A DNA stretch of 52,896 bases, taken from Thermoflexus sp. GTDB lineage: Bacteria; Chloroflexota; Anaerolineae; Aggregatilineales; Aggregatilineaceae. A program made the translations under genes and the position numbers. The stretch covers positions 1 through 52,896 of the forward strand of contig DYGX01000024.1 in assembly GCA_020724465.1 (NCBI GenBank), written 5' to 3'. This document shows, one piece after another, positions 11,674-36,184 of the stretch. How positions within the stretch are numbered: position 1 is the first letter of the stretch; the number at the start of each line of letters is the position of its first letter. The notes under the pieces were generated by a model that saw only the letters and a list, made by a program, of their open reading frames with translations, did not search any database and was not told the DNA's origin.

Positions 11674-12282
11674 CTAGCGTGCATCGCCAGAGCGCCCCAT
11701 GACCGCGTCGCGCAGGCGCTGCCAGAGGCCGAGGCGCTCAGGCGCCACCGGTTCGGCCTCGCCAGCCTGGCTCAGGCGCTCAACTTCCTGTCGGAGCCGG
11801 GCAAGCTCGGCCTTGAGCGCGTCATTCTCCTTTTTGAGCGGCCAGACCATCTCCTTGTAGTTGGCGTATTCCGCCGCGATGGGGCCGAACTTCAACTCCA
11901 GGGCGCGGTGATCCCGCAGGACGTCGAAGGCGAAATTCTTGATCGAGGCGTAGCGGGCTTCCATGATCGTCAGCCGGTCCAGCAGCTTCTTGATCTCCGC
12001 TTCCGACAGCCCCGCGGCGCCCTCGGGCACGCTCAGGGCGCGCTCGGACCGGAGAAAGGCCATGCCGGTTGTCAGCAGGATGATCAGCCCCTCGTTCGGC
12101 TTCCACCCATTTTCCTCAAGCATGTTGGCGATCTCGTCCCAGGTTTCGCGCATCAGCACGACCTCGACCTTGACCTGCTCGGCGCCCTCGAAGAAACGCC
12201 GCTCGAAATCCTCGGTAAACGGGTGGAATTCCGGGTCGTCGCTCTGAGGAAGCGGGCCTAGGGATGTCACAATTTCAGTCAT
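11674..12282 (-). CDS. Unknown protein with C-terminal coiled coil
   Basis: I do not recognise this 202-residue protein. It begins MTEIVTSLGPLPQSDDPEFH, has an alpha-helical middle with ETWDEIANMLEENGW and GMAFLRSERAL, and a long heptad-patterned segment (about residues 140-185: EYANYKEMVWPLKKENDALK and onward) that should form a coiled coil. It has no Cys and no membrane segment. The ATG at 12282 has AAGGA eight bases upstream; a longer frame lacks a ribosome site. It lies between the 139-residue unknown gene and DUF6062-like copy A, in the same orientation, and is probably part of the same mRNA. A scaffold or partner role for the cysteine-rich proteins is only a guess. Confidence 0.7.
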   Translation of the reverse strand: MTEIVTSLGPLPQSDDPEFHPFTEDFERRFFEGAEQVKVEVVLMRETWDEIANMLEENGWKPNEGLIILLTTGMAFLRSERALSVPEGAAGLSEAEIKKLLDRLTIMEARYASIKNFAFDVLRDHRALELKFGPIAAEYANYKEMVWPLKKENDALKAELARLRQEVERLSQAGEAEPVAPERLGLWQRLRDAVMGRSGDAR

Positions 12283-12326: not shown

Positions 12327-12746
12327 TCACTTCTGGGACAGGCGCGTGATCTCGAAGAGAATCGCGATCAGCTCATCGAGGCTGGGATCAAGCTCCGTTT
12401 CCAGAGCAGGATCGACCTCGCCAAAGCGTTTCAACTTCGCAGCGTGCGCATCGTGCAGATCGCTGCGCAGCAGGGCCAGCGGGCCGCGCAGCGAAGCCGA
12501 GTTGTCGTACGTCTTCTGCGGAAGCTCAAACCTGCGCGCCAGCCACGCGATCCGCTCCAGCGCCGTTTCGGCCAGGCGCTTCACCTCGGGGCGGCGCTCT
12601 TCCGGCAGGGTGATCACCGAGCGATACAGGATGGCTTGCTCCTCATTCGACAGATCGCGCACGATGCCGCGCAAGGTCCGCTCGAGCTGCCGCAGCGTGA
12701 TTGCCAGCGCCTGGCGCTGGTGCGAATTAAGAAGATCGCGGGTCAA
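12327..12746 (-). CDS. Unknown small helical protein
   Basis: I recognise no family. With a TTG start at 12746 the product is 139 residues, and AGGAG lies nine bases upstream of that codon. A longer ATG frame from 12788 overlaps the previous gene more and has no ribosome site. The protein is predicted mostly helical and charged, with QALAITLRQLERTLRGIVRD, an LSNEEQAILYRSV segment, and ERIAWLARRFELPQ. It has no Cys, signal peptide or membrane helix. Its start lies within the 3' end of DUF6062-like copy B (20-bp overlap), so the two are translationally coupled. It belongs to the operon controlled by the riboswitch at 13528-13600. Confidence 0.6.
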   Translation of the reverse strand: MTRDLLNSHQRQALAITLRQLERTLRGIVRDLSNEEQAILYRSVITLPEERRPEVKRLAETALERIAWLARRFELPQKTYDNSASLRGPLALLRSDLHDAHAAKLKRFGEVDPALETELDPSLDELIAILFEITRLSQK

Positions 12747-13449
12747 GTCCGAACACTCCTTCTTCGCCGGCCAGTCTGCCCACCGCACGCCGCCAGCTAT
12801 CGCCCTCGGCCCCCATTTTCTCCATGATGCGCCGGTAGTCGTTCATCTCGCGAAACTGCTGCAAATGGGCGTAGAGCTTCTTCCAGATCGCGGCCTGGAT
12901 CGCCAGCAGGCTTTCTGCCTGCGCCGTGTCGGACACGCTGCGCAGCGCCTGCCGGAAATGCGGCAGGCACAGGCCGTCCGACGCCCGGTACGCTTCCTTG
13001 AGTTTGTCGTCCTGAAGGTACTGGCAGAACACGCGGATATACTGCGCTTCGGACACCCCGATCTGGCGGCAGACCAGGCACGTCTCGGCGGGTTCGAGCC
13101 GGTCGGCCAGCAGCCCGGCGTTGGGTTTGCCGCCTGTGCCGGGCAGCCTGCCCCGCCCGGCCTGCGGATCGGCCCCCGGCTCGAGGATTTTGAGCACCTC
13201 GTCGACCGCCGCTTCGTACAGGACCGCAATCGCCAGCGCGTTGCCGGTGTGGCGCAAAAGCTGCCAGCTATGCTCGTTGCACAGGCCGCGCCGCCGCCGA
13301 AACGCCCGGTGAACGTCGGGATCGCCCACGTATTCGTAGAGCAGCGCGTCCAGCGAGCGGTCCACGTTGCGGCGCAGCAGATTGCAGATCACACATCCCG
13401 GCTGCGGCAGCCCATCGAGCAAATCAAAGTAGGTAACCGGCGTGACCAC
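12727..13449 (-). CDS. DUF6062-like twin C3H cysteine-rich protein (copy B)
   Basis: This 240-residue paralog of the 10877-11626 product is the first gene after the riboswitch terminator. With the GTG start at 13449 (GAGAGG seven bases upstream) its ligands are C19/C22 and C57/H60, exactly the numbers in copy A. That supports this start over an ATG frame from 13482. The second half has C124/C127 and C161/H164 (TCLVC, GLCLPH), plus the shared AYRASDGLCL segment. Each half resembles a zinc-ribbon-like CxxC...CxxH site. It has no signal peptide or membrane helix. Position and promoter argue for induction by the ligand of the upstream aptamer. The molecular function is unknown. Confidence 0.75.
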   Translation of the reverse strand: MVTPVTYFDLLDGLPQPGCVICNLLRRNVDRSLDALLYEYVGDPDVHRAFRRRRGLCNEHSWQLLRHTGNALAIAVLYEAAVDEVLKILEPGADPQAGRGRLPGTGGKPNAGLLADRLEPAETCLVCRQIGVSEAQYIRVFCQYLQDDKLKEAYRASDGLCLPHFRQALRSVSDTAQAESLLAIQAAIWKKLYAHLQQFREMNDYRRIMEKMGAEGDSWRRAVGRLAGEEGVFGLDPRSS

Positions 13450-13494
13450 AACACATCCTCTCTGTCGCGACGAGTGAGGCACGCTTCAGCCAAC

Positions 13495-13537
13495 AAAAAG
13501 CCTCTACCTGCACATCCGGCGTGCATGGGTAGAGGCT
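13495..13537 (-). terminator. Riboswitch-controlled intrinsic terminator
   Basis: AGCCTCTACC (minus strand, 13537-13528) pairs perfectly with GGTAGAGGCT (13508-13499), followed by a T5 run (13499-13495). The 5' arm is also the 3' pseudoknot strand of the aptamer, so ligand-stabilised aptamer and terminator are mutually exclusive: ligand should permit read-through. Confidence 0.85.
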
Positions 13538-13600
13538 ATTAGTCCGGAATCGAGGACACTTTGGCCGGCCAACACCGGCTCCAGCGAGCCTCATCGCTAT
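13528..13600 (-). promoter_or_regulatory. Fluoride (crcB-motif) riboswitch, variant copy
   Basis: On the minus strand the order is AGCGATGAGGCTCGCT (P1 hairpin), a GCCGG/CCGGC insertion hairpin, CCAAAG, then GTCC...GGAC and CTAATAGCCTCTACC. It matches the fluoride aptamer of Thermotoga petrophila as I recall it: GCGATGAGG, CCAAA, CTGAT and CCTCTAC. The pseudoknot strands GAGGCT and AGCCTC are fully complementary. It is nearly the same as the copy ahead of crcB at 34208-34280, but has TAAT where that copy has TGAT. It lies upstream of the DUF6062-like operon, not of a known fluoride exporter. Confidence 0.85.
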
Positions 13601-13616
13601 GGGTTTCTGTGTGTCT

Positions 13617-13645
13617 ATTGTCGCATTTTCGGCCCAAAACGTCAA
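13617..13645 (-). promoter_or_regulatory. Promoter of the DUF6062 riboswitch operon
   Basis: TTGACG (-35, 13645-13640), a 17-bp spacer ending in TGC (extended -10), and GACAAT (-10, 13622-13617). Boxes and spacer closely resemble the crcB promoter at 34294-34322, so promoter and riboswitch look duplicated together. Confidence 0.75.
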
Positions 13646-13680
13646 CGCGCGCCGGCTAAGGGAAGAACAGCACCGGCGCG

Positions 13681-14682
13681 TCACAGCCCGGTGCGGAGCG
13701 CAAGCTCAACCACCTGGCCGGGGCGGAACTGGCCGCTCAGCAGGCGCAGGCTGTTGGCGCGATCGGGGTCGCCCGGCTCCGCGTACAGGATCTGCGCGCA
13801 GAACTCCGCGATATCCTGCACGGCCCGCTCGCAGCGGTAGTATGCCAGCGCGTCCCGGTCGACCGCCGCCGGACTGTAGCCGGCATAGAACAGCGCCTCT
13901 TCCTCGTGCGGAGATCGCCACCCGCCGAACAGCCCCCCGCCGGGGAACATCAGGTCGCGCTCTTTGGGCGCCAGCGTAACCGTGTCCCAGTCCACGATGT
14001 ACAGCGCGTCGTCCGGGTCGATCAGGACGTTCCAGGCGTGGATATCCGCGTGACACAGCACCGCCGGCAGCGCGCGCGCCGCCAGACTCGCGGCGAGGGC
14101 ATCCGCCCGGCGGACAAGGGCTTCGATGGCAGGCCGCTCGCGTAGGAGCAACGCCGCGAGGTCCGCCGACACGGGATCCGCGAACGAGCGTTCCGCCGCC
14201 AGCGCCAGAAAGCCGCGCACCTTTTCGCGCCACGCGCCGGAGTACGTCTCGCGCTGGATGCGCGCCGCCAGGTCGGCGGGCAGCTCCAGCGCGTGGATCG
14301 CCCGCAGCGCGCGCCCCAGCGCGTGCCAGTGAGCCTCGGAAAGCGGCGTCTCGCTGCCGTCGCGCCCGGTCACAAACGGAAAAACCGTCAGCGTGAACCT
14401 GTCCAGCCGGGTCCACAGCGCGCCCGCGCGTGTGACGAGCGGCGCGATCACCGGCTCGATGCCGTGCTGGCGCAGAAGCCACGGCACGCGCACCGGCAGG
14501 TCGTCAAACGGGCCGCCGCGCAGCTTGACGAACAGCACACCGGCGTCCGTCTCCGCGCGGTAGACCGCCGTGTTGCGGTCCGCGCCAAGCGGCAGAAACG
14601 CCAGTGCGGCAGCGTCCAGCCCGTAGGCGTCGCGCAGGCACGCGGCAATGGTCGTGTCGTCGATGGCAGGTTTTGTAAGCAT
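13681..14682 (-). CDS. APH-family small-molecule phosphotransferase
   Basis: The 333-residue protein has the aminoglycoside-phosphotransferase kinase fold. The N-lobe includes FLPLGADRNTAVYRAET and a Lys in VLFVKLRGG. The catalytic loop LCHADIHAWNVLID (H-x-D-x5-N) lies in the C-lobe, followed by the metal-binding IVDWDT. It most resembles the spectinomycin-phosphotransferase/choline-kinase-like branch, but the substrate cannot be told. A resistance role is not implied, since many such enzymes phosphorylate metabolites. The start at 14682 gives the expected length; the ribosome site is weak. It ends 36 bp from the riboswitch promoter, in the same direction, and seems to be transcribed separately. 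Confidence 0.85.
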   Translation of the reverse strand: MLTKPAIDDTTIAACLRDAYGLDAAALAFLPLGADRNTAVYRAETDAGVLFVKLRGGPFDDLPVRVPWLLRQHGIEPVIAPLVTRAGALWTRLDRFTLTVFPFVTGRDGSETPLSEAHWHALGRALRAIHALELPADLAARIQRETYSGAWREKVRGFLALAAERSFADPVSADLAALLLRERPAIEALVRRADALAASLAARALPAVLCHADIHAWNVLIDPDDALYIVDWDTVTLAPKERDLMFPGGGLFGGWRSPHEEEALFYAGYSPAAVDRDALAYYRCERAVQDIAEFCAQILYAEPGDPDRANSLRLLSGQFRPGQVVELALRTGL

Positions 14683-14858
14683 GAATGAATCCGGGTTGGT
14701 TTGCCAGCTCGCCAGTCTGCGCACAAGTGTACCATCCCCGCTGTGGCGGTGTCGAAGAGGGTCTGACAGCCTGGCTTTCTCCCGTCCCCTTCGCCGACCG
14801 TTCCTCACCGGCAGCGGTACATCGGGCTGCCCGGCCCTGGCAGTGATCGAGCGCCGGT

Positions 14859-32435: not shown

Positions 32436-33725
32436 CTATTCTGCCTGGGGCTGAGCGGGCAAAGATCGCTCGTCGGCGCCCAGGCTGGCGGCCAGCAGGG
32501 CCTGGCGGTCGACAATCCCGATCGGTCGCCCGGTCTGGTCGACGACGACGATCCGTTTGCGCCCTTCGCGCAGCATCAGCGCGATCGCGTCCGGCACGCT
32601 GGTTTCCGGCGGAGCGGAGAGCACATGCTCGGACATGATATCGCGCGCGCGGGCGTGCCCGCGCACCAGCCCGGTGCCCATCACCCGTTGGGCGATGGCC
32701 TGCAGCAAGTTGGGGCGCACCACCGGCGCCACCCGCGCCACCAGATCCCCTTCGGTGATGATCCCGGCGGCCCGCCCCTGCTCGTCCAGCACGACCACGT
32801 AGCGGACAGCCGACTTGAGCATCTGCTGCAAGACGTCAACCAGATCATCGTAGATATAGACGGAAGGGACCACCGGGGCCATGATCTCGCCGAGCGACTG
32901 ACCCTGCTTCGGAAGCTGGGGCGCGCGCTCCGCTTCGCCCGCGCCGTTCCCGGCCACGGCGCGCAGGATATCCAGGCGGCTGACCATCCCGACCAGGCGG
33001 CCTTCGGCGTCGACCACCGGCAGCCGTGTCAGCTTGCGCTCGACCATCAACTGCGCGACGTGCCCCAGCGCCTCATCGGTCCGGACCGTATATACCGGCT
33101 GCCGCATGATGTCCTGCGCGGTTTTCTCGTGGCGGATCTGCGCCAGGAACGCGTGCAGATCGGCCTGCTCAAGCCGCCCGGCGACGGCCAGGCGCGCGGG
33201 CATCTCGGCCTTGTGCAGCAGATCGTCTTCGGTGATGATGCCGATCACGCGCCGCTGCTCGTCGATGACCGGCACGGCTTTGAACAACTGGCCCAGCAGC
33301 AGCTCGACCACGCGCTTGGCCGGGGTGTCCGGCGTGACGGTGACGACCTGGCGGGTCATGATGTCGGTGACGGGCCGGTCGGCGGGCAGGGGTTGGAGAT
33401 AGCGATGTGTGTACTTGATGATCTCCACGTCTTCGACCGTGATCAGGCCCTCGCGCACCATCGGCTTGACCAGCGCCAGCGCCCGGTCGATGTTCTCCGG
33501 CGAGTCGATGACCGTGATGATCATCGGCAGGTCCATCGATAGCCGCTCGATGCTCCAGGTGTGGATCCGGCTGTGAGCGCCAAACCCCGCCTGGCCGCGC
33601 AGGACGGTTGCGCCGGCGATGCCCGCTTTGCGCAGGGTTTCCAGGATGCTCATATACAGCGACCGCCCCTGCCACGAGTCGCTCTCGCCGATGTAAATCG
33701 TCAGTCGCTTACCGGGATTGGACAT
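32436..33725 (-). CDS. DUF190 plus four-CBS-domain protein
   Basis: The 429-residue protein has an N-terminal DUF190 domain (residues ~1-105: RLTIYIGESDSWQGRSLYMS, HTWSIERLSMDLPMIITVID). Four CBS domains follow, beginning about residues 117, 210, 285 and 370 (TDIMTRQVVTVTP, QDIMRQPVYTVRT, GEIMAPVVPSVYI, RDIMSEHVLSAPP). DUF190 genes frequently neighbour crcB, and the CBS domains could bind adenine nucleotides. The ATG at 33725 has AAGGAG 11 bases upstream, overlapping the crcB stop region. A regulator or partner of the fluoride channel is the natural inference, but the activity of DUF190 is not established to my knowledge. Confidence 0.88.
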   Translation of the reverse strand: MSNPGKRLTIYIGESDSWQGRSLYMSILETLRKAGIAGATVLRGQAGFGAHSRIHTWSIERLSMDLPMIITVIDSPENIDRALALVKPMVREGLITVEDVEIIKYTHRYLQPLPADRPVTDIMTRQVVTVTPDTPAKRVVELLLGQLFKAVPVIDEQRRVIGIITEDDLLHKAEMPARLAVAGRLEQADLHAFLAQIRHEKTAQDIMRQPVYTVRTDEALGHVAQLMVERKLTRLPVVDAEGRLVGMVSRLDILRAVAGNGAGEAERAPQLPKQGQSLGEIMAPVVPSVYIYDDLVDVLQQMLKSAVRYVVVLDEQGRAAGIITEGDLVARVAPVVRPNLLQAIAQRVMGTGLVRGHARARDIMSEHVLSAPPETSVPDAIALMLREGRKRIVVVDQTGRPIGIVDRQALLAASLGADERSLPAQPQAE

Positions 33726-33740
33726 GTACGCCGCGTCTCC

Positions 33741-34133
33741 TTAACCGATCTGCCGGCCAACCACCAGTCCCGCAAACGCCCCGAGGATGCACAGCAGGTT
33801 CGTGCCCAGGACGTTGCCAAGCGCGCCAAGCAGATCGCCCGACTCCCATAATAACGCGGTCTCGTTGGCGAAGGTGGAAAAGGTGGTGTACGCTCCGAAG
33901 AACCCGACCACGATCAGCATGCGGGCGCGCGGGTCGATGGTGATGTGCTGCGCGGACCAGCCCAGAAACACGCCCAGCAGCAGCGCCCCGCTGAGGTTCA
34001 CGACCAGCGTCCCCCAGGGGAAAGTCTGCCCCACCCGCTCGGCGACCCACCCCGCGACCCAATACCGCATATTCGCTCCGAAAAACCCGCCCAGCCCGAT
34101 CAGCAAAAACGTCTCCACCTGTCTGTTCACCAT
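33741..34133 (-). CDS. crcB: CrcB/Fluc fluoride channel
   Basis: The 130-residue protein with four membrane helices carries all family marks: GLGGFFGANMRYWVAG (loop after helix 1), GTLVVNLSGALLLGVFLG (helix 2 with the conserved Asn), and GFFGAYTTFSTFANET (helix 3 break with the Phe-box and TTFST). Fluc channels form dual-topology dimers that let fluoride leave the cell. The start ATG 34133 is preferred to longer frames because they would run into the terminator. It is the first gene after the fluoride riboswitch (34208-34280), and its stop lies 15 bases from the DUF190-CBS gene. Confidence 0.95.
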   Translation of the reverse strand: MVNRQVETFLLIGLGGFFGANMRYWVAGWVAERVGQTFPWGTLVVNLSGALLLGVFLGWSAQHITIDPRARMLIVVGFFGAYTTFSTFANETALLWESGDLLGALGNVLGTNLLCILGAFAGLVVGRQIG

Positions 34134-34177
34134 CCCGTTATTCCTGGCGTCGAATGGCGCGCCTGCCGCGTGCCAGC

Positions 34178-34217
34178 AAAAAGCCTCTACCTGCACAGCC
34201 GTGCGCGGGTAGAGGCT
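34178..34217 (-). terminator. crcB riboswitch terminator
   Basis: AGCCTCTACC (34217-34208 on the minus strand) pairs with GGTAGAGGCT (34191-34182), ending in T5 (34182-34178). The 5' arm is shared with the aptamer pseudoknot, giving an on-switch by fluoride. It has the same design and nearly the same sequence as 13495-13537. Confidence 0.9.
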
Positions 34218-34280
34218 ATCAGTCCCCTGCGAGGACACTTTGGCCGGCGCCGGACCGGCTCAAGCGAGCCTCATCGCTCA
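34208..34280 (-). promoter_or_regulatory. Fluoride (crcB-motif) riboswitch
   Basis: On the minus strand: GAGCGATGAGGCTCGCTTG, an insertion hairpin (GCCGG...CCGGC), CCAAAGTGTCC, GGGACTGATAGCCTCTACC. The CTGAT core, the GAGGCT/AGCCTC pseudoknot and the CCAAA joining segment match the known fluoride aptamer, with covarying base pairs relative to the Thermotoga sequence as I recall it. It lies directly upstream of crcB, the classical target. Confidence 0.93.
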
Positions 34281-34293
34281 GTGTCAGGCGTCT

Positions 34294-34322
34294 ATTGTGG
34301 CATGTTCGCCCCGAATCGTCAA
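34294..34322 (-). promoter_or_regulatory. crcB operon promoter
   Basis: TTGACG (34322-34317), a 17-bp spacer ending in TGC, and CACAAT (34299-34294). RNA would start about 7-10 bases before the aptamer. Its spacer is similar to that of the promoter at 13617-13645. Confidence 0.75.
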
Positions 34323-34420: not shown

Positions 34421-36184
34421 ATGGACCAGCTTATCGTCTTTAGTACCCTGGCTGGCGCGCTCGTCCTGTTTGTCGGCGGGTGGCTGCGCTACGACGTGGT
34501 CGCGCTGCTGGCGCTGCTGGCGGTCACGCTCACCGGCGTGATCACCCAAGAGGATGCCTTTTCCGGCTTTGGACACCCCGCCGTGGTGACCGTCGCCGCC
34601 GTGCTGGTCGTCAGCCGCGGGCTGTTCAACGGCGGCATGGGGGACCTGATCGCCCGGCGGCTGGCGTGGATGGGCAACAGCCCAGTGCGGCAGGTGACGG
34701 TCCTGACCGGGACTGTGGCGCTCAGCTCGGCGTTTATGAATAACGTCGGGGCGCTGACGCTGCTGATGCCGGTCGCGATCAAGATCGCCCGCAAGAGCGG
34801 GGTGCCGGCGTCGACGCTGCTCATGCCGCTGGCGTTCGGCTCGCTGCTGGGCGGCATGACGACCCTCATCGGCACGCCGCCCAACATTGTGATCGCCACC
34901 TTTCGCGCCCAGACCAGCGGCGCGCCCTTCCGCATGTTCGACTTTACCCCGGTCGGTCTGAGCGTGGCGCTGGCGGGCATCGCCTACCTGGGGCTGCTCG
35001 GCTGGCGCCTGATTCCCCGGCGGGAAAGCGCGGGGGCGCGCCAGGACCTGTTCGAGATCGGCGCCTACACGACCGAAGTACGCATCCCCGAAGGCTCGGC
35101 GCTGGCGGGCAAGATGGTGCGCCAGATCAAGGACGGCGCCAACGTTGACCTGGTGATCGTGGCCGTGCTGCGCGGCATCCAGCGCATCCCCGCGCCGTCT
35201 GCCTACGAGACCTTGCGCGCGGGCGACATCCTGGTGGTCGAGGCCACGCCCGAAGACCTGGAAGCCCTGGTCGAAGCCTATAAACTGGAGCTGGTGGGCA
35301 GCGGCAGCGCGGATAGCCTGGTGTTCAAAGACATGAGCGTTGTCGAGGCGGTCGTGATGCCCAACTCCCCGATTGTCAACCAGACGCCGCGCAGCCTGAA
35401 CCTGCGCTGGCGGCATGGGGTCAATCTGCTGGCCGTGGCCCGCCAGGGGACGCGCGTCAGGGCACGGCTGAGCCAGTTCCGCTTCCAAGCGGGCGACGTG
35501 CTGCTGCTCCAGACGCATACCGACACGCTCGGCGATGTGCTGTCGGCGCTGGGATGCCTGCCGCTGGCGGATCGCGAAATCGGGCTGGGGCGACCGCGCC
35601 GGTTGCTGGTTCCCGCGGCGATCTTCGCCGTGACGCTGGCCGTGGCAGGAACCGGGCTGCTCTCGATCGCGGTGGCGATGGCCGGCGCGGCGGTAGCGAT
35701 GGTGGTGCTGGGGGTTGTCTCGCTGAAAGAAGCTTACGACAGCATCAACTGGCCGATCATCATCCTGCTGGGCGCGATGATCCCGGTCGGCGGGGCGCTG
35801 GAGACGTCGGGCGGGGCGCAGACCATCGCCGACGGCTTGCTGCGGGTGGGCGCGACGCTGCCTCCGGCGGTCACCCTGGCCCTGCTTCTCATCGCGACCA
35901 TGAGCCTGTCCGATATCATCAACAACGCTGCCGCGGCGGTCCTCATGGCGCCGATCGCGGTCCACGTCGCGCAGAGCCTGGCAGCCGCGCCCGATCCCTT
36001 TTTGATGGCCGTTGCCATCGGCGCGTCATGCGCCTTTCTGACCCCCATCGGCCACCAGTCGAACACGCTCGTCATGGGGCCGGGCGGCTACCGCTTCGGC
36101 GACTACTGGCGCGTGGGCCTGCTGCTGGAAATTCTGGTGGTGCTGGTCAGCCTGCCCGTGATCTTGATCATCTGGCCGCTTTAG
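34421..36184 (+). CDS. SLC13-type anion permease with two RCK_C domains
   Basis: The 587-residue protein has the SLC13/DASS/CitT layout. An N-terminal membrane half ends in SAFMNNVGALTLLMPVAI and LLGGMTTLIGTPPNIVIA. Two TrkA-C/RCK_C regulatory modules follow (~residues 215-285, EVRIPEGSALAGKMV; and ~306-378, VVMPNSPIVNQTPRSLNLRW). The C-terminal half has SDIINNAAAAVLMAPIAV and FLTPIGHQSNTLVMGPG. The paired SNT-like motifs (TPPN and the HQSN region) bind the anion and Na+. Substrates in this branch include sulfate, and others are possible; with the sulfur genes at 20-27 kb, sulfate or a related anion is a fair guess. It is divergent from crcB. GAGG precedes the ATG. Confidence 0.9.
   Translation: MDQLIVFSTLAGALVLFVGGWLRYDVVALLALLAVTLTGVITQEDAFSGFGHPAVVTVAAVLVVSRGLFNGGMGDLIARRLAWMGNSPVRQVTVLTGTVALSSAFMNNVGALTLLMPVAIKIARKSGVPASTLLMPLAFGSLLGGMTTLIGTPPNIVIATFRAQTSGAPFRMFDFTPVGLSVALAGIAYLGLLGWRLIPRRESAGARQDLFEIGAYTTEVRIPEGSALAGKMVRQIKDGANVDLVIVAVLRGIQRIPAPSAYETLRAGDILVVEATPEDLEALVEAYKLELVGSGSADSLVFKDMSVVEAVVMPNSPIVNQTPRSLNLRWRHGVNLLAVARQGTRVRARLSQFRFQAGDVLLLQTHTDTLGDVLSALGCLPLADREIGLGRPRRLLVPAAIFAVTLAVAGTGLLSIAVAMAGAAVAMVVLGVVSLKEAYDSINWPIIILLGAMIPVGGALETSGGAQTIADGLLRVGATLPPAVTLALLLIATMSLSDIINNAAAAVLMAPIAVHVAQSLAAAPDPFLMAVAIGASCAFLTPIGHQSNTLVMGPGGYRFGDYWRVGLLLEILVVLVSLPVILIIWPL

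Follow-up and report, generated by a model that had tools for sequence, protein, structure and literature searches.

Fluoride riboswitches of the crcB-motif type (Rfam RF01734) have been connected with several genes. In the sections of PMC11139923, PMC2864571 and PMC7266159 that we consulted, the fluoride regulon includes CrcB, CLC-F, Na+/H+ antiporter, pyrophosphatase, enolase and MutS; pyrophosphatase, enolase and Na+/H+ antiporters are among the fluoride-switch genes in those of PMC11139923, and mutS was already listed for the crcB motif in those of PMC2864571. A terminator which overlaps a strand of the pseudoknot is a described arrangement of these switches (consulted sections of PMC11077080 and PMC2864571). 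Here, we analysed positions 1 to 52,896 of contig DYGX01000024.1 of Thermoflexus sp. (the whole stretch is called the window), in which a putative leader of this kind precedes an operon starting with a DUF6062 gene.

The initial annotation had described a promoter, an aptamer and a mutually exclusive terminator at 13645-13495 (minus strand) as a near copy of the block in front of crcB, and this was borne out (Table 1). When 13490-13645 (minus strand) was compared with the whole genome by BLAST, one strong second copy was obtained (34173-34322, minus strand, 80% identity, E 1e-30), and the next-best match covered just 24 nt (E 0.013). The promoter pattern occurs once in 13300-13800, and 0.1 is expected from shuffles. 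In the aptamer of the 13.5-kb block (W13), the helices are P1 (AGCG/CGCT), the pseudoknot helix (GAGGC/GCCTC), an inserted hairpin (GCCGG/CCGGC) and P3 (GTCC/GGAC). With these helices, its conserved nucleotides, its place in the 5' leader of a gene and a terminator that overlaps the pseudoknot strand, W13 thus has the architecture of the crcB motif, and the extra G+C hairpin between the P1 3' strand and the A-rich junction is found in both window copies. The terminator hairpin of W13 (13537-13499, minus strand) is predicted at -24.5 kcal/mol (z -5.1), and that of the aptamer W34 before crcB (34217-34182, minus strand) at -25.7 kcal/mol (z -3.4). Because one segment serves both as the 5' arm of the W13 hairpin and as the 3' strand of the pseudoknot helix, the aptamer fold and the terminator fold exclude each other. 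A simple terminator scan of 13300-13800, which accepts one unbroken stem with a loop of 3-8, reported no site, since the stem with its bulge does not fit this rule.

Table 1 Features of the two leader blocks and their operons in the window.
Feature	Position	Strand	Evidence
Promoter-like site, TTGACG-17-GACAAT	13617..13645	-	Pattern scan of the letters
Fluoride-type (crcB-motif) aptamer W13	13523..13607	-	R1 42.1 bits, E 2.7e-7
Intrinsic terminator of W13 block	13495..13537	-	5' arm shared with the pseudoknot helix (its 3' strand)
DUF6062 protein, 240 aa, GTG start, twin CxxC...CxxH	12727..13449	-	PF19538 76.4 bits
CL9-family protein, 139 aa, TTG start	12327..12746	-	No Pfam family
CL4-family protein, 202 aa, helical	11674..12282	-	No Pfam family over cut-off
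DUF6062 paralogue, 249 aa	10877..11626	-	PF19538 52.5 bits
Fluoride-type aptamer W34, in the 80% identical block	34203..34287	-	R1 41.9 bits, E 3e-7; BLAST
Terminator of W34 block	34178..34217	-	Hairpin fold
crcB (Fluc fluoride channel)	33741..34133	-	PF02537 93.7 bits; TIGR00494 106.1 bits, cut-off 80.45
DUF190 + CBS-domain protein, behind crcB	32436..33725	-	Profile search

The gene content of the operon also agreed with the initial annotation, which had proposed a cysteine-rich protein followed by two unknown proteins and a paralogue. Both DUF6062 proteins lie above the PF19538 cut-off of 27 bits, the CL9 and CL4 proteins match no Pfam family over its cut-off, and the start of the CL9 gene overlaps the DUF6062 stop by 20 nt. 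Likewise, the gene behind the switch is not a known exporter, as no match to PF02537 (CrcB) or PF00654 (CLC) up to E 0.01 was obtained for the four operon proteins. The proposed "twin C3H" motif was corrected to C-x2-C-x34-C-x2-H and C-x2-C-x33-C-x2-H, forming an internal duplication; the term twin CxxC...CxxH is our own description of DUF6062 and was not taken from Pfam output. Two neighbouring genes were also observed. An aminoglycoside-phosphotransferase-like kinase gene (13681-14748) lies upstream of the W13 leader on the same strand, and its product resembles APH(9)-Ia far below the cut-off (244.8 of 680 bits). A CitMHS/TrkA-C anion transporter gene (34421-36184) is divergent from the crcB switch block.

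Judging from sequence and comparison, the 13.5-kb block is very probably an ON riboswitch of the fluoride type which acts by transcription antitermination and drives DUF6062, CL9, CL4 and the second DUF6062 gene, making these proteins a probable part of the fluoride stress response in this Anaerolineae lineage. By analogy with the riboswitch family, the terminator would form without fluoride, and fluoride together with Mg2+ would hold the pseudoknot and let RNA polymerase read through. The operon proteins would then presumably lower fluoride damage.

For the identification of the RNA, we used a covariance model, R1, constructed from 34 aptamers which Rfam found in other genomes of the class (Anaerolineae), with the window left out. 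In the 53-kb window, both copies were detected by R1 (Table 1), and a single further match, of 14.7 bits, was obtained up to E 10. In the training aptamers, 99.3% of the cells of P1, the pseudoknot helix and P3 are paired with 54 double-sided changes, and none of 500 shuffles showed covariation as high. Using an alignment of 88 aptamers fitted to the model (mostly class members, both window rows included), 99.4% pairing and 109 double-sided changes were obtained for the pseudoknot helix and P3. The 14 columns that are invariant in the 34 other aptamers are also kept when both window copies and one more are added. In contrast, RF01734 reported neither window copy at its own gathering cut-off (34 bits), found neither up to E 10 on 341-base stretches, and included neither among its 16 whole-genome matches up to E 10. 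In the covariance-model check suggested in the initial annotation, the class-trained model thus accepts both copies (about 3e-7), and Rfam's own model misses the 13.5-kb and crcB copies alike. Because both are equally missed, RF01734 cannot separate them, and since the copy in front of crcB fails to the same extent, we read this result as a detection limit and not as evidence on the ligand. Being under the RF01734 cut-off, the two copies are therefore not filed under that family as scored and are called fluoride-type. Other candidates were rejected: the two best matches of RF01734 in this genome, C27 (22.8 bits) and C33 (20 bits), are absent from the R1 matches at E 0.001, and RAGATH-5, SAM-VI, sodF and Rubella_3, which appeared at the two blocks at lax Rfam thresholds, were weak, opposite-strand matches regarded as noise.

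The survey of DUF6062 genes for upstream crcB-motif RNAs, which the initial annotation had recommended, showed a clear linkage. In a class sample of 199 genomes, PF19538 was found in 101 rows from 84 genomes (two fragment pairs merged), and R1 gave 71 matches at E 0.001, distributed over 55 genomes, which is a lower bound because the scan filters are strict. With one RNA added from a locus picked by DUF6062, 72 RNAs were considered. DUF6062 lies within 400 nt downstream on the same strand of 23 of them, in 22 genomes and 13 family codes (22 of 71 without the added RNA), and about 0.004 would be expected by chance assuming 4.1 Mb per genome. Counted from the gene, an RNA precedes 23 of the 101 DUF6062 rows on the same strand within 400 nt and 39 within 5 kb, compared with 8 of 69 CrcB rows within 400 nt (8 of the 72 RNAs). 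The R1 training set consists partly of DUF6062-linked aptamers, and a count free of this effect, using only RNAs over the Rfam cut-off, also showed the linkage, with DUF6062 within 400 nt of 10 of 31 RNAs and within 9 kb of 14. By genome, DUF6062 is present in 41 of 55 genomes with the RNA versus 43 of 144 without it (Fisher p 1.9e-8, related genomes not being independent), whereas CrcB shows no excess (14/55 versus 52/144, p 0.18). The motif could be located in 68 of the 72 aptamers, and 59 of these 68 are followed by a terminator helix of at least 7 pairs from the pseudoknot strand and then a T-rich stretch, and the same criterion was satisfied by 2.9% or 6.8% of shuffled downstream sequence. 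The phosphoglycerate kinase control, with 0 rows within 400 nt of the RNA, comprises 4 eye-picked rows only and is not leaned on.

An R1 RNA is absent within 5 kb upstream of 62 of the 101 DUF6062 rows, a number that includes contigs ending early and depends on the strict filters. The DUF6062 family is thus not exclusively fluoride-linked, because many rows have no RNA, including the third copy of the window's genome (L108, G000:C3:11263-11895), which has no R1 match near. The linkage was also seen in other samples. Among 23 DUF6062 loci of a phylum draw, mostly from other classes, R1 matched three (L170, L188 and L174) at E < 1e-4, and the RNA of L170 is also over the Rfam cut-off (46.5 bits). 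In 80 named DUF6062 loci (the best 80 of 176, overlapping with our genome sample), R1 matched within 400 nt upstream in 15 and farther upstream in 9 more. At L258 and L279, RF01734 matches over its cut-off (51.1 and 55.1 bits) lie 81 and 1136 nt upstream of DUF6062; the record titles are Methylomirabilota and Rokuibacteriota, which may err as the records are metagenome-assembled.

The genes accompanying DUF6062 were surveyed behind the 72 RNAs using profiles of 16 recurring families, because the gene finder assigned no downstream gene to five RNAs; the separate HEAT and MFS profiles stem from one single-linkage cluster that was divided by length. DUF6062 is located within 9 kb of 33 of the 72 RNAs. 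Five of these DUF6062 operons carry inorganic pyrophosphatase (Pfam on one), and others carry a Na+/H+ exchanger. The most informative arrangement is L330 in G483, a genome with the same family code as the window's genome, where one aptamer precedes, all on one strand, DUF6062, CL9, CL4, MFS, DUF6062, CL4, an enolase C-terminal fragment, CrcB and DUF190/CBS. The identities to the window proteins are 74% (DUF6062), 69% (CL9), 60% (CL4), 61% (second DUF6062), 77% (CrcB) and 78% (DUF190/CBS), and the enolase is called a fragment because its match, at the C-terminal end of the profile, is 36 positions long. Thus, two units which have separate switches in the window are lined up behind one aptamer in a relative. 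Two relatives, G483 (L330; also L214) and G523 (L338; also L215), retain the order RNA-DUF6062-CL9-CL4, and related orders are RNA-CL9-CL4-DUF6062-CL4 (L332, G489) and RNA-DUF6062-CL4 (L334, G484). With the conserved RNA-DUF6062 linkage and the fluoride genes in such operons, the earlier assignment of these proteins to the fluoride stress response is supported as the most likely one.

Other families were also observed near these RNAs or near DUF6062. MutS domain V proteins (about 500 aa, frequently in pairs) are found behind 17 of the 72 class aptamers. MoxR, DUF58 and DUF4129 occur behind 7, 7 and 5 of the 72, and in L071 (936-4565) the MoxR-DUF58-DUF4129 trio stands behind the RNA immediately after DUF6062. 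In six genomes with one family code (G064, G112, G131, G149, G165 and G180), an RNA-less DUF6062 gene lies about 2.2-4.3 kb from an enolase gene on the same strand.

The DUF6062 proteins share a highly conserved motif. All eight Cys/His ligands are present in every row of a 31-row alignment which includes both window proteins, and likewise in each of 69 aligned DUF6062 proteins; within the class set, 93 or 94 of the 94 rows have a given ligand. Comparison by hhalign showed that the two halves are homologous (E 4.4e-11), and the AlphaFold2 model is all-helical and confident (pLDDT 92.5). No solved relative was found by sequence (best E 0.031) and no clear fold match by Foldseek (best E 0.65), and the best VIA hit (Z 5.2, 105 aligned, rmsd 4.4) is in the range that helical proteins reach by chance. 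This lack of a structural match for the predicted model does not show a new fold. Within our preferred reading, there is roughly an even chance that DUF6062 is soluble and helical, has two Cys3His metal sites of a structural kind, and would assist stressed machinery as its scaffold or protective partner instead of acting as an exporter. For CL4, a long coiled coil was predicted in a model of middling quality (pLDDT 70.4, pTM 0.40), Foldseek gave no match at E 0.001, and the sequence matches were mostly to coiled coils (best E 0.0078); a ribbon-helix-helix was considered from the letters as a candidate for its N-terminal part. Dynamin-type proteins were also seen beside DUF6062: one protein of L128 (5075-6919) is a dynamin-type GTPase that also matches DUF6062 weakly (24.2 bits, under the cut-off), and in L292 (3902-6412) a dynamin gene adjoins DUF6062 behind the aptamer.

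The strongest alternative, to which we give a low probability, is that the switch senses fluoride while DUF6062 is a passenger of the regulon which serves general stress or another process. The many DUF6062 genes without an RNA nearby would be expected in that case; in a tree of 94 DUF6062 rows made by a quick method, with the RNA label defined as within 9 kb, 55 rows have no RNA. However, the first recognised gene after the RNA is DUF6062 in 24 of 72 cases, above MutS-like (13), CrcB (9) and all others of the 16 families. In the tree, all sampled members of an 18-row clade (SH-aLRT 94), which holds the window paralogue at 10.9 kb, stand behind the RNA, and a DUF6062 gene of G143 without the RNA lies directly before CrcB, with 52 nt between the matches. 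The first DUF6062 protein of the window pairs with one of those of G127 in another branch (SH-aLRT 88), and the RNA label changes 14 times on the tree compared with 30.1 in shuffles, at least 5 changes being forced by well-supported branches.

Even less probable is a variant aptamer with the shape of the crcB motif that senses another ligand, such as another halide or a metal, before DUF6062. This possibility could draw on the silence of Rfam on W13 and on an A in W13 at a position that is G in 74 of the 88 aligned aptamers. However, the same silence extends to the crcB copy, which is 80% identical, and the A is shared by 14 of the 88, W13 included, and by L053, an aptamer upstream of a DUF6062 with an Rfam score of 49.9 bits. 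Because pyrophosphatase, CrcB (in L330) and other known fluoride-regulon genes also occur in DUF6062 operons, a fluoride response is more likely than the related halide or metal response that the initial annotation had left as an alternative. That the 13.5-kb block is a decayed, functionless duplicate of the crcB leader, as two near copies 21 kb apart on one contig could suggest, is very improbable in view of its intact promoter-like site, aptamer and terminator hairpin and of like leaders before DUF6062-CL9-CL4 in G483 and G523 and before DUF6062-CL4 in G484.

Under the fluoride riboswitch reading, exporters deserve separate consideration. Of the 55 class genomes with the RNA, 41 have no CrcB match and 23 have neither CrcB nor CLC, and DUF6062 is present in 18 of these 23; incomplete assemblies may account for part of the missing exporters, but G010 is a single contig that is 98% complete. 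As a tentative proposal, the DUF6062 operons may form an arm of fluoride tolerance independent of exporters, in which DUF6062, or the MFS transporter often found beside it, would represent a new kind of fluoride-handling protein. An MFS family is found behind 15 of the 72 class aptamers and may be an exporter.

In conclusion, the DUF6062 family is likely to be a new part of how bacteria cope with fluoride. What is new is not the kind of RNA but the conserved association of fluoride with DUF6062 and its partners. DUF6062 stands behind the switch more often than CrcB does (23 versus 8 of 72, within 400 nt), which gives a first functional lead for DUF6062, and this lead extends to two families without a Pfam model (CL9 and CL4). 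These genes are also candidates for fluoride survival in bacteria without a recognised exporter. In the literature searched, DUF6062 was named nowhere and no DUF6062-fluoride link was found (the gene lists of Baker 2012 being outside this comparison), and searches on the fluoride riboswitch with Chloroflexi or Anaerolineae and on the crcB motif with MutS gave nothing on such a link.

Compared with the known systems, our locus has both shared and distinct features. First, W13 has P1, the pseudoknot helix, P3, the conserved nucleotides, the place in a 5' leader and the terminator on the pseudoknot strand in common with the crcB motif of RF01734, but differs from it by the extra G+C hairpin (the letters at its start occur in 52 of 88 aligned aptamers), by the silence of Rfam, and by driving DUF6062 in place of an exporter or an enzyme known to be sensitive to fluoride. 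Second, the crcB-DUF190/CBS operon of the window (34.3-32.4 kb) has a similar leader block and is in line with the DUF6062 set in G483 (L330), but it encodes a Fluc channel. Third, both window proteins belong with PF19538, a family of unknown function by Pfam's own title, as they pass its cut-off and retain the eight Cys/His ligands. Finally, DUF6062, CL9, CL4, HEAT/zinc-ribbon and MoxR-DUF58 are not named in the consulted sections of PMC11139923, PMC2864571 and PMC7266159, whereas several members of the known fluoride regulon share operons or the RNA with them in this class.
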